Assembly: GCA_944321185.1 (NCBI GenBank) | Contig: CALUKH010000014.1 | Location: forward strand, 1 to 45,892 | DNA: 45,892 nt | Source: an uncultured Alistipes sp. | GTDB taxonomy: Bacteria > Bacteroidota > Bacteroidia > Bacteroidales > Rikenellaceae | Direction of reading: 5' to 3' | In this document: one piece after another, positions 40,822 to 45,892 of the stretch | Position numbering within the stretch: the stretch's first letter is position 1 | Layout of the letters: each line of letters starts with the position of its first letter | Notes under the pieces: model-generated | What the model was told of the DNA's origin: nothing | The model's database searches: none | The model's input: the letters and a program-made list of their open reading frames with translations, nothing else | Position numbers and translations under genes: made by a program

Positions 40822-41685
40822 CTACTCACGGCGGATACCGCCGCCGCTCGATTTGGTGGCTTCGACCCGGCAGTCGCCCGAGTATCGGATTCCGGCGCCG
40901 CTCGAGGCCGAGGCCTTGAGTGTTTCGGTGCAGTTCACCGAGGCTTTCGAACCGCTCGAGGCTGTGAGGTCGGCCCGCTGTGCGGTCAGTTCCGAGGCAT
41001 CGATCTTGCTGGCCGAATTGCTTCTGCTTTCGAAGTACTCCGTTTGTCCCCGGAGCGTGATTCCGGCGGCACTCGAGGCGCTGGCCGTGCAGGATCTCGA
41101 TTTGATCTGGGCGCGGACCTCGGCGGCGCTCGAAGCCTCGATGTTGCACGTGGCTGCCTCGACCGTCAGATCCACATCGGCGGCACTCGAGGCGTCGATG
41201 CTGCACGAACCGGCCTTGACCGAGGCTTCGATCTCGGCGGCACTCGAGGCCTTGACCAGCAGATCTTTCCCCGTCAGTTCGACCTGGCTGCCGTGGATCT
41301 CGGCGGCGCTCGAGGCTCTCAGGGCGCGGAACGTCCGTCCCTGAACGGGGATCGTCACCGTGACGTGGATGTTGTTGATCGATTTGATCCGGCGGTCGAT
41401 CGTCACCTGCAGTTCGCCCTCTTCGGACTCCACGATGACCCATTCCATGACGTTGTCGTCGGCATCGATGCGGATTTTGTCGCCCTGCTCCGCGAGGATG
41501 ACCTTCACGGCGCGCGAGGTATTGATGGCGTCGAATTCGGGGATCGGGATCTCCCGGGTGACGATATTTCCGCTGGCCTTGATGATGCGTTTGCCCGGCA
41601 GGGGTGCTGCGAAGCCGTCCGTGCCGACGAGGCAGGCGGCAACCGCTACGGCCAGGGTCGTGATGATCCAAAGTATCTTTCTCAT
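40822..41685 (-). CDS. Head-GIN-domain (DUF2807) beta-solenoid protein
   Basis: Exported protein of 287 residues: signal peptide (ILWIITTLAVAVAACLVG), then the GIN head (FDAINTSRAVKVILAEQGDKIRI), then a solenoid in which SSAAE/SSAA recurs about every 20 residues (about five clear turns and several weaker SSG/NSA turns). The end is KSSGGGIRRE. Such DUF2807 proteins are predicted periplasmic or surface adhesin-like parallel beta-helices. Start at 41685 gives the signal peptide; it follows the PadR gene by 11 bases. Confidence 0.9.
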   Translation of the reverse strand: MRKILWIITTLAVAVAACLVGTDGFAAPLPGKRIIKASGNIVTREIPIPEFDAINTSRAVKVILAEQGDKIRIDADDNVMEWVIVESEEGELQVTIDRRIKSINNIHVTVTIPVQGRTFRALRASSAAEIHGSQVELTGKDLLVKASSAAEIEASVKAGSCSIDASSAADVDLTVEAATCNIEASSAAEVRAQIKSRSCTASASSAAGITLRGQTEYFESRSNSASKIDASELTAQRADLTASSGSKASVNCTETLKASASSGAGIRYSGDCRVEATKSSGGGIRRE

Positions 41686-42877: not shown

Positions 42878-42962
42878 ACATAGTACCTGTTTTTTTGAAA
42901 AATTTCCGATATTTGATACCTCGATGTTGCGTTTTGCCCACCGAGATCGTCTTACAGATACC

Positions 42963-43481
42963 ATGAAGGATTCCGAGTACACGCGATTGATCCTGCCGTT
43001 GCGCGACCGCATGTTCCGTTATGCACGGAGCCTGTTGCTCTCGTCGGTCGAGGCGGAGGATGCGGTGTGCGAGTTGCTGGCCCGGTTGTGGATCGAGCGC
43101 GGGCAGCGGGAGTTGCCGCGGCGGGTGGATTCGTTCGTGATGACGGCCCTGCGCAACCGGTGTTACGATCTGCTGCGGCAGCGGCAGGCCGATGAACGGC
43201 GCCGCGAAGCGATGACGAGATCCGTTGAACGCGTGACCGAAGCGGATATCCGCCGCATGGAGGCCCGGGAGTTGGTCCGGCGGGCGATGGCCGCGCTTCC
43301 CGACCGGCAGCGGGAGGTGCTTCATCTGAAGGAGATCGAGGGCTTCGCCACGCGGGAGATTGCCGCGATGATCGGTTGTGACGAGGCTCAGGTGCGGGTG
43401 ATTCTCTCCCGGGCACGGATGGCCCTTCGTGGAATTCTGCAAAAAATGATGGACGATGAACGAACGACAAGAACGGATTGA
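42963..43481 (+). CDS. ECF-type RNA polymerase sigma-70 factor
   Basis: Alternative sigma factor of 172 residues. Region 2: LILPLRDRMFRYARSLLLSSVEAEDAVCELLARLW and SFVMTALRNRCYDLLRQR. Region 4: MAALPDRQREVLHLKEIEG and ATREIAAMIGCDEAQVRVILSRARMALR. Start at 42963 (MKDSEYTR) fits the family; an earlier in-frame ATG at 42924 is possible. The next gene overlaps it by 26 bases, the usual sigma/anti-sigma arrangement. Confidence 0.93.
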   Translation: MKDSEYTRLILPLRDRMFRYARSLLLSSVEAEDAVCELLARLWIERGQRELPRRVDSFVMTALRNRCYDLLRQRQADERRREAMTRSVERVTEADIRRMEARELVRRAMAALPDRQREVLHLKEIEGFATREIAAMIGCDEAQVRVILSRARMALRGILQKMMDDERTTRTD

Positions 43482-44073
43482 ACGGCTGGCTGCACGCTGG
43501 CTCGAAGCGCAGACCTCGGAAGCCGAGGAGCGCGAATTGCGTGCCTTGTTGCGCGGGGATGATCTGCCTGAATCGCTGCGCGAATGGGCCGTGCTGTTCG
43601 AGGGCTTCGAGGCCCTTTCAGAGGAGTCCCTGCCCGAACGGGCGGTCGGACGGCTGCCCGTTCAGACCGCTGACCGCCGGCGCGGGAAGGTTGTCGACCG
43701 TCTGCCGGAAGACACCTCCGGTCGCCTGTCGGAAGAAGTGGCCGGATGCCTTCCCGAGATGCCGGTCCTGTGCCAACCCGCATCGACCTGCGGCCGATCT
43801 GAAGGAACGCCGGGTTCCCGGTCTGATGATCCGGCCGGATCCCGGCGGCGAGGCACCCGCCTGCGAAGAGTGCTGTTTTGGTCGGCTGCGGCCGCAGGGG
43901 TGGTGCTGGGCGTGCTGCTCGGAGTGAAGCTGTTGCGCCAACCATACTGTTACATCGACGGCAAACCCGTCTACGACAAGGAGCTGGCGCTCCGAACCAC
44001 CACCTATTTCGAAGCCTTTGAGGTCCTGGATGCCCCGGATCGCTTGGTCGACCAACTGATTGATAACCATTAA
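43456..44073 (+). CDS. Putative anti-sigma factor, single-pass membrane protein
   Basis: Protein of 205 residues: a helical cytoplasmic N-terminus (1-55, RLAARWLEAQTSEAEERELRALL), an Arg-rich low-complexity middle with repeated RLPE/GRLSEE elements (60-130), one transmembrane helix (139-160) and a short outer segment. No ZAS zinc motif is visible. Assignment rests on overlap with the sigma gene, topology and size, not on a strong domain match. Confidence 0.65.
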   Translation: MNERQERIERLAARWLEAQTSEAEERELRALLRGDDLPESLREWAVLFEGFEALSEESLPERAVGRLPVQTADRRRGKVVDRLPEDTSGRLSEEVAGCLPEMPVLCQPASTCGRSEGTPGSRSDDPAGSRRRGTRLRRVLFWSAAAAGVVLGVLLGVKLLRQPYCYIDGKPVYDKELALRTTTYFEAFEVLDAPDRLVDQLIDNH

Positions 44074-44086
44074 TGAACGTGCAGCC

Positions 44087-44968
44087 ATGAATAGACGAAT
44101 TTTTCTTTTGACGATCCTTTTGTCTTCGCTGATCGTGTTTTCGCTCCGAGCGGCTTCAGACCGGGAAGGAGATATGCTGCCCGCGGAGGCCGACATGCCG
44201 CGGGAGGCTTGTGCCTGCGATACGCTGCGGCAGGGTGATCTGGTTGAAAATGACCTGATGACACTGCGCCGCACGTCGGACGATGTGGTGCTCGAAGTGG
44301 CCGGTTTCGGAATCACCCTCTCTTCGCGCGAATGGCTCCAGCCGGCCGATCCCGAACAACCCCGCTCGCGAGTCTCTCCGACACTGCTCTCCGGGTCGGA
44401 GTATGGCTTCATCATTCCGACGGGCATTGACTACGGAGCCTATCCTGCGGGCAGTGACCGCTTCTTCGATCTGCGCAGCGGCAAGTCGTTTCATCTCGCC
44501 TCGACGCTCATTGGGCTGAAGGTCGAGATGGGACGCCGGCGTCTGTTCAGCTTCGCGACCGGATTGCGCTATACGATCGACAATTACCGGCTTTCGAACT
44601 CCTCGGTCACGCTCGGTCACGAAGACGGAATGGTCGTTCCGGTTGTGCTGGACGAACGGGCCGACAAGTCGAAACTGCGCGTCACGTCGCTGGGGCTCCC
44701 GCTGACCTTCTCATGCCGGGCTGCACGGAATCTGTCGGTGGCCCTGTCGGGGTATTTCGACTTCACGATGGGAGCCAACGCCATCTATAAACGCCCCAAG
44801 GTGAAGCAACCGCTTGCCGGGGTGAATCCGTTCCGATTCGGAGTGGGGGCGGCCGTCGGTTATCATTCGGTCGGGGTTTATGTGCGTTACAGCGTCACGC
44901 CGCTTTTCGAGGATCGGGTCGGGCCGGGCGTACACCCGCTGTCGATTGGCCTTTGTCTGGATCTCTAA
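44087..44968 (+). CDS. Outer-membrane beta-barrel protein
   Basis: Exported protein of 293 residues. The signal peptide (FLLTILLSSLIVFSLRAAS) is followed by an acidic segment, then alternating strands typical of Bacteroidetes PorT/OmpW-like barrels (STLIGLKVEMGRRRLFSFATGLRYTI; VGAAVGYHSVGVYVRYSVTPLF). It ends in LCLDL with a terminal hydrophobic pattern. Specific function unknown. Placed after the anti-sigma gene (13-base gap), it may be a target of the sigma factor. Confidence 0.78.
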   Translation: MNRRIFLLTILLSSLIVFSLRAASDREGDMLPAEADMPREACACDTLRQGDLVENDLMTLRRTSDDVVLEVAGFGITLSSREWLQPADPEQPRSRVSPTLLSGSEYGFIIPTGIDYGAYPAGSDRFFDLRSGKSFHLASTLIGLKVEMGRRRLFSFATGLRYTIDNYRLSNSSVTLGHEDGMVVPVVLDERADKSKLRVTSLGLPLTFSCRAARNLSVALSGYFDFTMGANAIYKRPKVKQPLAGVNPFRFGVGAAVGYHSVGVYVRYSVTPLFEDRVGPGVHPLSIGLCLDL

Positions 44969-44979
44969 ACCGTGTGGCG

Positions 44980-45480
44980 ATGAAGCGGATTCTATTGCTA
45001 TGGTTGATTGTTCTCTGTTCACAACCTTTTTGGGTGTGTGGACAGCAGGTCTCCGGGGAGTTTTTCGATCGGTATGCCCGGGCGGAGGGGTTCTCCAGCG
45101 TGCAACTGGAGCGCAGGATGATGCGGATGATGAGCCGTCAGGCAGCCGATCGGGGCGATGCCGCACTGGCCCGACTGCTCGACGGGATCGAATCCATCCA
45201 GATCGTGGCTCTCGACGGGGGCGATGATACGAATTTCCTGCAGGCGGCCGATTCGCTGATCGCGCGTCCGTCCTATCGGTTTCAACTGGTCATGTCGGAG
45301 AGTGATTCGGGGCAGCAGACGCGGTTTTATCTGCGAAATGCCGTGCCGCCCGGTTATTCGGAATTGCTCATGGTGACGTCGGGTCCCCGGGAGACGGTCG
45401 TCGTGAATATTTACGGACGTTTCGATCTGAAACAGGTCTCGCGGCTTTCGACCATTCGTCCCAAACCGGCGGCTGAGTAG
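44980..45480 (+). CDS. DUF4252 protein
   Basis: Exported protein of 166 residues: signal peptide (LLLWLIVLCSQPFWVCGQQ), then a DUF4252 domain (FFDRYARAEGFSSVQLERRMM, IESIQIVAL, YSELLMVTSGPRETVVVNIYG). DUF4252 proteins typically follow ECF sigma genes in Bacteroidetes; function unknown. Last gene of the sigma operon, followed by the tandem repeat array. Confidence 0.85.
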   Translation: MKRILLLWLIVLCSQPFWVCGQQVSGEFFDRYARAEGFSSVQLERRMMRMMSRQAADRGDAALARLLDGIESIQIVALDGGDDTNFLQAADSLIARPSYRFQLVMSESDSGQQTRFYLRNAVPPGYSELLMVTSGPRETVVVNIYGRFDLKQVSRLSTIRPKPAAE

Positions 45481-45529
45481 CCCGCGGCAAGTCTTCCTCC
45501 CTTTGCAGATCGCCCGTCTTGCGGAAACG

Positions 45530-45560
45530 AAAACCCCGGAACACAAGGTTCCGGGGTTTT
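45530..45560. terminator. Terminator hairpin in repeat unit 1
   Basis: Perfect 13-base-pair stem AAAACCCCGGAAC / GTTCCGGGGTTTT with a 5-base loop, 49 bases after the DUF4252 stop. T4 follows on both strands, so it can end the sigma operon and the minus-strand gene remnant. Confidence 0.85.
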
Positions 45561-45583
45561 CGTGTGAAACGCTTTCGCGCGGT

Positions 45584-45622
45584 TAGTCCTTGAACTTGGC
45601 CGAGAGAAGCTCGCGGTTCAGG
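45584..45622 (-). pseudogene. C-terminal gene remnant in repeat unit 1
   Basis: Minus-strand codons reading LNRELLSAKFKD then TAA. In this frame the sequence upstream is the palindrome, so no start or body exists here. The second unit has the same end with Leu to Phe and Lys to Arg changes. Parent protein not identified. Confidence 0.55.
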
Positions 45623-45712
45623 TGGTGTAGTCTCCTCCCTTTTCAAAGGGAGGTCGGGAGGGATTGTCGACAACCGATGCGTGAAACGCAGATCGCCCGC
45701 CTTGCGGAAACG

Positions 45713-45744
45713 AAAACCCCGGAACCAAGTGTCCCGGGGTTTTT
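45713..45744. terminator. Terminator hairpin in repeat unit 2
   Basis: Stem AAAACCCCGG / CCGGGGTTTT with an 11-base loop and an extra T. The loop side diverges from unit 1 but the stem is intact. Confidence 0.75.
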
Positions 45745-45769
45745 CGTGTGAAACGCTTTCGCGCGGTTT

Positions 45770-45808
45770 AGTCCTTGAACCTGGCCGAGAGGAACTCGCG
45801 GTTCAGGC
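45770..45808 (-). pseudogene. C-terminal gene remnant in repeat unit 2
   Basis: Minus-strand codons reading LNREFLSARFKD then TAA, parallel to the remnant in unit 1. Confidence 0.55.
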
Positions 45809-45872
45809 GTTGAGTTCTCCTCCCTTTTCAAAGGGAGGTCGGGAGGGATTGTCGACAACCGATGCGTGAAAC

Positions 45873-45892
45873 GCAGATCGCCCGCCTTGCGG
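45873..45892. repeat. Tandem repeat unit 3, cut by the window edge
   Basis: The first 20 bases of a third unit, identical to the start of unit 2, run into the window end. The array probably continues. Confidence 0.8.

Follow-up and report, generated by a model that had tools for sequence, protein, structure and literature searches.

We found that a tandem array at the end of a contig from an uncultured Alistipes species is genuine and is part of a wider pattern, in which copies of a gene's 3' end are separated by a palindrome that is dispersed in the genus. The window, i.e. the whole stretch of DNA analysed (45,892 nucleotides), is the entire contig C14 of the draft genome G000, which has 42 contigs and is 79% complete. 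The array has the layout T-REP-T-REP-T. Here T denotes the 3' end of sdhB, the terminator, and a short inverted copy of gene sequence (a'), and a REP-like palindrome (REP) is located at every junction. The sdhB gene encodes the succinate dehydrogenase/fumarate reductase iron-sulfur subunit (NCBIfam). The same T-REP-T layout recurs at rny, der, and tRNA-Thr.

The initial annotation had described a head-to-tail array of units of about 184 bases, and this was borne out by Tandem Repeats Finder. The top-scoring tandem repeat among 14 rows for the window spans 45505-45892, with a period of 185, 2.1 copies, 93% matches, and a score of 677, and the units are spaced by 183 (45505 to 45688) and 185 (45583 to 45768). 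Two complete units and the 20 initial bases of a third are present; the array reaches the end of contig C14, so this is a minimum length. The units are 89-94% similar across almost their entire length and are not short repeats with unlike spacers, in agreement with the earlier view that this is not a CRISPR. On the minus strand, each unit contains the last 12 sdhB codons and the stop (LNREFLSAKFKD-like), the terminator hairpin, a', and the palindrome (Table 1). The terminator, coding remnant, and palindrome that had been noticed in every unit were thus all found, the remnant being identified by relatives. The a' of the window units is the inverse complement of sdhB codons further upstream. The 3' part of sdhB is absent from the assembly of the window genome, and the identity of a' and of the tails was judged there on relatives.

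Table 1 Features of the sdhB tail array and its left neighbour in the window.
Feature	Position	Strand	Evidence
DUF4252 gene to the left of the array; it and sdhB are convergent in relatives	44983..45480	+	Pfam PF14060, E 9.4e-21; ortholog beside the array in G032 and An66
Incomplete REP-like palindrome with left arm and partial loop, putative remnant of a further unit	45496..45504	+	45496-45505 complementary without mismatch to both 45644-45653 and 45829-45838
Truncated a' of unit 1, in inverse orientation to the codons T-H-I-A-R in sdhB of relatives	45505..45518	+	Sequence; relatives
Intrinsic terminator of unit 1, 16-bp stem	45527..45563	-	Inverted repeat; fold z-score -3.49; missed by consensus scan
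Displaced sdhB 3' end, unit 1 (LNRELLSAKFKD stop)	45583..45621	-	Relatives; tail comparison
REP-like palindrome 1, CCTCCC..GGGAGG..GGAGGGATTGT	45634..45667	+	Palindrome pattern matches; inverted-repeat analysis
a' of unit 2	45686..45701	+	Sequence; relatives
Intrinsic terminator of unit 2	45710..45747	-	Inverted repeats; fold z-score -4.30
sdhB 3' end, unit 2 (LNREFLSARFKD stop), displaced or live; gene body off contig	45768..45806	-	Relatives; tail comparison
REP-like palindrome 2	45819..45852	+	Palindrome pattern matches; inverted-repeat analysis
a' of unit 3 and start of third unit, cut by contig end	45871..45892	+	Sequence; Tandem Repeats Finder

In the terminator stems of the two units, 16 of 16 and 12 of 13 arm bases are complementary, and both terminators fold better as RNA than shuffled sequences. 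The palindrome alone, taken as RNA, folds no better than shuffles (z -1.39, -1.85, -0.20). A promoter/terminator consensus scan of 44900-45892 listed no terminators despite the plain stems, and a search of 43000-45892 against Rfam gave a single sub-threshold match (RF02495, 24.9 bits against a cut-off of 50, E 0.87), which was taken as chance. In both window palindromes, the third arm mirrors the second (CCTCCC / GGGAGG / GGAGGG). Such a three-arm palindrome would suit an intramolecular purine triplex or a G-quadruplex. At the left edge of the array, half a palindrome is fused to the next element near 45496-45512 (junction of CCTCCCTTT with GCAGATCG). The joining of this half palindrome to the unit 1 a' points to a further unit formerly located at the left, consistent with the truncated extra unit proposed earlier. 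Elsewhere in the window, a 57-bp tandem repeat of 2.3 copies is located within a putative minus-strand gene (41120-41252), and the region 42924-45480 contains a gene for a Sigma-70-family factor followed by three more plus-strand ORFs, the last of which is the DUF4252 gene. These four may form one operon.

The sdhB locus was compared in relatives. In An66 and G053, the right neighbour of the array is sdhB, directed towards the array, and in G032 the array is divided between two contigs, with the DUF4252 gene on one and sdhB on the other. In the window genome, sdhB residues 1-66 begin contig C6, which places the remainder of the gene, and further units if there are any, in the gap that separates C14 from C6. 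Two or more sdhB tails were found in eight genomes: the window genome, An66 (3), G053 (2), E27 bin329 (3), the genome of locus L089 (2), G106 (2), G137 (3), and G117 (2 from the tail search, with a third cut by the contig end). The search of relatives for the unit and the palindrome that had been proposed for the window thus uncovered the array in seven other Alistipes genomes, with the palindrome dispersed in the genus. In contigs that include sdhB, the intact gene ends in the first tail, the others are displaced, and the palindromes lie between the tails; six genomes (An66, G053, E27, the L089 genome, G106, and G137) have n palindromes with n+1 tails. Because the palindromes are located between copies of the gene tail, the gene stays intact.

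The array is present or absent between species, and the palindrome marks the unit junction. Among 30 sdhB loci in another sample, the array was found in 3 (An66, G137, and G053, the last shown by a separate comparison, as this reading had placed the G053 end at its displaced tail), 1 was cut (G032), and 26 had no second tail or palindrome. At the sites in G126 and G054, the DUF4252 gene is still the neighbour of sdhB (66% and 64% identical) and there is no second tail or palindrome; by eye, we saw no a' at these two empty sites and two terminator-like hairpins at each. The G137 array has another palindrome type (CCCC/GGGG/GGGG) at the same place. A palindrome pattern scan of named genomes matched nine records, six from Alistipes and three others, and the sdhB array was found in five, all of them Alistipes, including the isolate An66.

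That the array is an assembly artefact has a close to negligible probability. In favour of an artefact is its place at the end of a contig, where REPs are over-represented: of 94 REPs, 21 fall within 400 bp of such an end, against 2.1 expected. However, diverged units are resolved at the same place in the isolate Alistipes sp. An66 and in other genomes, and G006 has a complete tRNA array, with three palindromes, in the interior of a contig, both of which make an artefact unlikely.

This tRNA array follows the tRNA-Thr gene of G006 and consists of three palindromes and three displaced tRNA ends with a period of 168. At tRNA-Thr in G008, the gene-side units carry one terminator and the outermost displaced tRNA end retains a different one. 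The rny and der genes encode RNase_Y and GTPase Der (NCBIfam). At rny in G024, the gene tail and stop are followed by a', the palindrome, a second tail, and then the DNA that lies directly downstream of rny in G034 and G027, where the site is empty. Occupied sites were found in G008, G024, G129, and (cut) G020 among 30 rny loci. Among 30 der loci read by eye, 8 were occupied (G024, G027, G008, G129, G054, G126, G117, and G103), 5 had a' with no full palindrome or second tail seen (G053, G023, G000, G042, and G012), 16 had no a', and 1 was cut (G032). The der end of the window genome (L255, G000:C20) retains an a' remnant, CCCGAAAAATCC, and no palindrome was seen there. No obvious terminator was seen by eye in the rny and der units. 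A restored tail with a direct repeat of the tail at the far end, which is a feature of 3'-end-targeting elements, was found at rny, der, sdhB, and tRNA-Thr. The units read are about 100-185 bp long, with tail lengths of about 30 to 140 bp. In a further array (L272, G027:C1, about 67.9-68.2 kb), two palindromes are located 185 bp apart with repeated flanks, and no gene tail was identified.

The inverted copy a' was found to match its own gene. At 21 sites of der, rny, and sdhB, which are orthologous within each gene and were chosen as occupied or partly occupied by a palindrome or GACAA-type edge after the gene, a' is an exact complement of 8-16 bases of the gene (median 12), against a best match of 6 (median 4, n=268) in the cross-gene control. 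The 40 bases before the palindrome edge were searched, and the gene match adjoins the point where the second tail starts; the der site of G027 and the window, whose gene is off the contig, were outside this test. The a' also tracks its gene: G106 and An66 differ at three positions of sdhB and a' is altered to match, and the same holds for the a' of rny between G008, G024, and G129. In the sdhB arrays of G053 and E27, the match is interrupted at one base (9 nt). The orientation of the REP relative to a' varies. In addition, the terminator loop is exactly inverted between units in two of five arrays (units 1 and 3 of An66; units 2 and 3 of G006, 22/22 inverted versus 18/22 direct). In the window, the terminator core of unit 2 compared with unit 1 is near even (24/27 inverse, 22/27 direct), and for G053 and G137 the direct reading fits better.

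To characterize the palindrome beyond these loci, we analyzed its occurrence and its flanks. One arm type has 1-8 exact matches per genome in 35 of 101 Alistipes genomes, including the window genome, and none in 294 other genomes of the order. The second type, in which all three arms are altered together (CCCTCC / GGAGGG / GGGAGG), had 32 matches in 20 of 141 genomes, with 0 for the pattern control. Viral contigs had no exact match to the commonest palindrome. Matches outside Alistipes (L084, L085, and L087, which are Nitrospirae, gammaproteobacterial, and Acinetobacter records) are exact but lack flanking direct repeats. We tested for direct repeats in 80 regions around palindrome matches, containing 94 palindromes, of which 4 were too close to an edge and 90 could be tested. 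A direct repeat of any length across the palindrome was found at 43 of the 90, versus 8 of 108 intergenic control points in the same regions, and one of at least 25 bp at 37, versus 7 of the 108. Random points had a direct repeat in 4 of 204 cases, and 53 of the tested REPs had no flanking direct repeat of 25 bp. By a crude annotation of the 37 direct repeats, 6 coincided with the end of an ORF and 1 with a tRNA, 11 were internal to ORFs of 100 aa or more (many of these ORFs are probably not genes), and 19 matched none of these categories.

We also counted second copies of gene ends; the regions were chosen around palindromes, so these counts are descriptive. A second copy of the last 30 bases was found for 6 of 45 ORFs ending at most 300 nt before a palindrome, versus 1 of 271 elsewhere, where the 6 include a palindrome read as an ORF end (L118) and miss the der tail of L151. 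For tRNAs there was no difference between those near a palindrome (5 of 22, ending at most 300 nt before it) and those away from it (2 of 8, beyond 1.2 kb, with the range from 300 nt to 1.2 kb dropped), and in two of the five the REP was not between the copies. Palindromes begin 69-74 nt downstream of all seven tRNA-Met genes that end at most 300 nt before one (L100, L114, L120, L130, L153, L154, and L156), and 67-73 nt downstream of three of five such tRNA-Gly genes (L107, L127, and L140). Inverted repeats across all REPs, present in 16% versus 2.5% of mismatched pairs at a score of at least 10, were not used, as the top cases by eye were mostly duplicated terminator hairpins. In the search for a mobilising enzyme, no recombinase was recognised among the ORFs listed for G129 and G044 between two REPs separated by about 2.1 kb. 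The Y1_Tnp domain (PF01797) was found in 1 of 101 Alistipes genomes, G116, which itself has no REP match. A PF01797 transposase was thus ruled out as mobiliser in REP-bearing genomes, where a very divergent or unassembled copy could escape.

The histories of the tails were examined by comparing live with displaced copies. These differ by 37 synonymous to 4 nonsynonymous bases (der 11:0, rny 11:0, sdhB 15:4), a count that leans towards well-kept copies and in which pairs within one array are not independent. It comprises indel-free displaced tails, namely those of der in G024, G129, G008, and G027, and of rny in G024, G129, and G008 (two copies), together with those of sdhB. Left out were der in G117 and G054 (deletion in the displaced tail), G126 (start altered), G103 (cut), and G053, G023, G000, G042, and G012 (tail lost or not seen), as well as rny in G020, where the contig ends and the displaced tails are on another contig. 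Mere decay of displaced tails would give a synonymous share of about 36% (P 1e-12, to be read just as a strong excess). Two pairs without a live copy on the contig stand outside the sum: the two tails of the window differ by 0:3, as decay would give, and those of G117 by 1:0. In a tree of 20 units, the three units of An66 do not form a clade (p-AU 1.2e-6, for a group named after an earlier tree), and An66 unit 2 groups with units of E27 and G032 (100/99). Window units 1 and 2 are sisters (92/92), as for local duplication, and the G137 units are 90-93% identical. From the two groupings in this tree, local growth of arrays and sharing of units across species both seem to occur.

From the junction order, the empty sites, the inverted copy, and the mixed unit types, all of them observed, we infer an origin by hairpin-guided (fold-back) template switching followed by spread through homologous recombination, a reading that we favour with evenly divided confidence. 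The first event would be an error in replicating a structured gene end, in which the polymerase would copy the gene 3' end and terminator, fold back, and briefly copy the opposite strand, leaving a'. It would then pass into or capture a palindrome and resume at the gene end, so that the gene is intact and a second tail lies downstream. Later homologous recombination between tails could add, remove, and exchange units, both within a genome and across Alistipes species. Template switching is supported by the empty and occupied sites at sdhB, rny, and der, by the direct repeats at 37 of 90 REPs versus 7 of 108 control points, by the match of a' to its own gene (8-16 nt against at most 6 across genes), and by the exact loop inversions in two of five arrays, to which the window adds weak support; the abstract of PMC8604942 names inversion of the spacer among the outcomes of switching at inverted repeats. 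The non-clade of An66 and the 37:4 tail differences point to exchange of units. Synonymous-only differences are not predicted by local copying alone, and the exchange step is therefore needed as an addition. Capture of the REP is not explained by switching alone, because the REP is dispersed and lies in either orientation relative to a'. Also against template switching are the 53 of 90 REPs without a 25-bp direct repeat, the modest counts of second tails (6 of 45 ORFs; 5 of 22 versus 2 of 8 tRNAs), the cruder annotation, in which a tRNA or ORF 3' end coincided with just 7 of the 37 direct repeats, and the lack of a clear loop inversion in three of five arrays (G053 and G137 direct, the window near even). 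The a' could instead be kept by selection for base pairing.

Gene-less mobile cassettes are a possible but doubtful alternative, in which a recombinase would insert a unit of tail, terminator, a', and REP into a specific gene 3' end, restoring the frame and pushing the old tail outward, and arrays would be successive insertions. This would explain replacement tails and the repeated use of one site at least as well as switching. The same der and sdhB positions are occupied in several species with different REP arm types, the displaced tails resemble former live tails by the 37:4 count, the gene-side units at tRNA-Thr in G008 carry a terminator unlike that behind the outermost displaced tRNA end, and six arrays have n+1 tails. 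However, the units are too short for a recombinase gene, the Y1-family search gave no candidate enzyme, and both tail length and REP orientation vary. Homologous recombination of occupied alleles would yield the same synonymous pattern. A more specific form, which we regard as rather unlikely, is an end-restoring insertion cassette without genes. It would be a hairpin element that enters the 3' ends of genes and tRNAs and uses a', a short stretch complementary to the target gene, as its guide. It would bring its own tail and sometimes a new terminator, let the gene survive, accrete in tandem, and move between Alistipes species.

The initial annotation had taken the palindromes to mark recombination or replication slippage. 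The direct repeats of at least 25 bp at 37 of 90 palindromes support rearrangement, but plain slippage is insufficient given the palindrome between copies, a', the synonymous-only differences among several copies, and the unit types common to different species. We hold it to be distinctly unlikely that a segment with gene tail, terminator, and palindrome was simply duplicated in tandem, whether through slippage or through unequal crossing-over. Simple duplication fits the sister relationship of window units 1 and 2, which are about 93% alike, and the similarity of the G137 units, and the half palindrome left of unit 1 could be an outer palindrome that was cut later. It is weakened by the T-REP-T order, as it predicts equal numbers of palindromes and tails with a palindrome at the outer end too, which six arrays lack, and it yields no a', no empty sites free of both a' and palindrome, and no mixed unit types. 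It is highly improbable that selection maintains the units for a role between the convergent genes, as serial terminators or as RNA structures at 3' ends, the duplication being incidental. Terminator stems remain paired in diverged units while the sequence changes, and a' tracks its gene between species; but the two empty sdhB sites manage without an array, with two terminator-like hairpins each by eye, and the rny and der units have no obvious terminator by eye. The array may be tolerated because it provides a series of terminators where two genes converge, and this analysis gave no evidence that any function needs it.

The arrays share features with known systems. In E. coli, 178-bp tandem repeats are located behind the tRNA-Tyr gene tyrT, each with the tRNA 3' end, at one locus, and are not known to carry a dispersed palindrome at the junctions. 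The Alistipes arrays are similar in having tandem units of similar length downstream of a gene and differ in the palindrome at each junction and the several loci. The element e14 and phage 21 integrate in the icd 3' end with a replacement tail that keeps the protein, and they bear genes and an integrase. The Alistipes units likewise involve a coding 3' end with a replacement tail, but contain no gene or integrase. REP clusters of the GTAG and CGTC families are 20-40 bp palindromes, dispersed, mostly intergenic, and often near gene 3' ends, and their large clusters contain tandem reiterations of REPs together with adjoining DNA that varies in length, as described in the accessible part of PMC3733652. 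The Alistipes palindromes similarly are dispersed, 20-40 bp long, and in several copies per genome. Unlike REP/RAYT systems, they show no GTAG or CGTC tag at the palindrome end by eye in the listed matches, a tag that by the same part of PMC3733652 defines the two large REP super-families only, and REP-bearing genomes have no Y1 transposase. Their flanking DNA consists of a copied gene tail and an inverted gene copy; displaced gene ends and Alistipes are not mentioned in the accessible text of PMC3733652. The TnpA-Y1 / RAYT subclass 2.6 of Bacteroidetes, the same phylum as Alistipes, is described as having atypical secondary structures at its flanks, copies of which occur at other places in the genome (PMC6006769, in its accessible text, where Alistipes does not appear), but REP-bearing Alistipes genomes have no Y1_Tnp match. 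Template switching at inverted repeats has been described in yeast coding DNA, where it homogenises arms and inverts spacers; the abstract does not mention capture of a palindrome or gene tails in tandem (PMC8604942).

In the literature covered, which excludes most subscription journals, these palindromes were not described in Alistipes, and REP junctions were not described as combining a displaced tail of a gene with an inverted copy from it. REPs in tandem with flanking DNA are known already; the copied gene tails and the inverted copy at the junctions would be the new features. To our knowledge, how REP clusters form is an open question. The occurrence of occupied and empty sites, inverted copies, and codon-synonymous tail pairs within one genus makes the competing mechanisms directly testable. 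As REPs coincide with breaks in draft sequences, the number of such arrays in public genomes is probably underestimated. Exchange of tails, if it takes place, would allow a housekeeping gene to have a 3' end whose history differs from that of the remainder of the gene.
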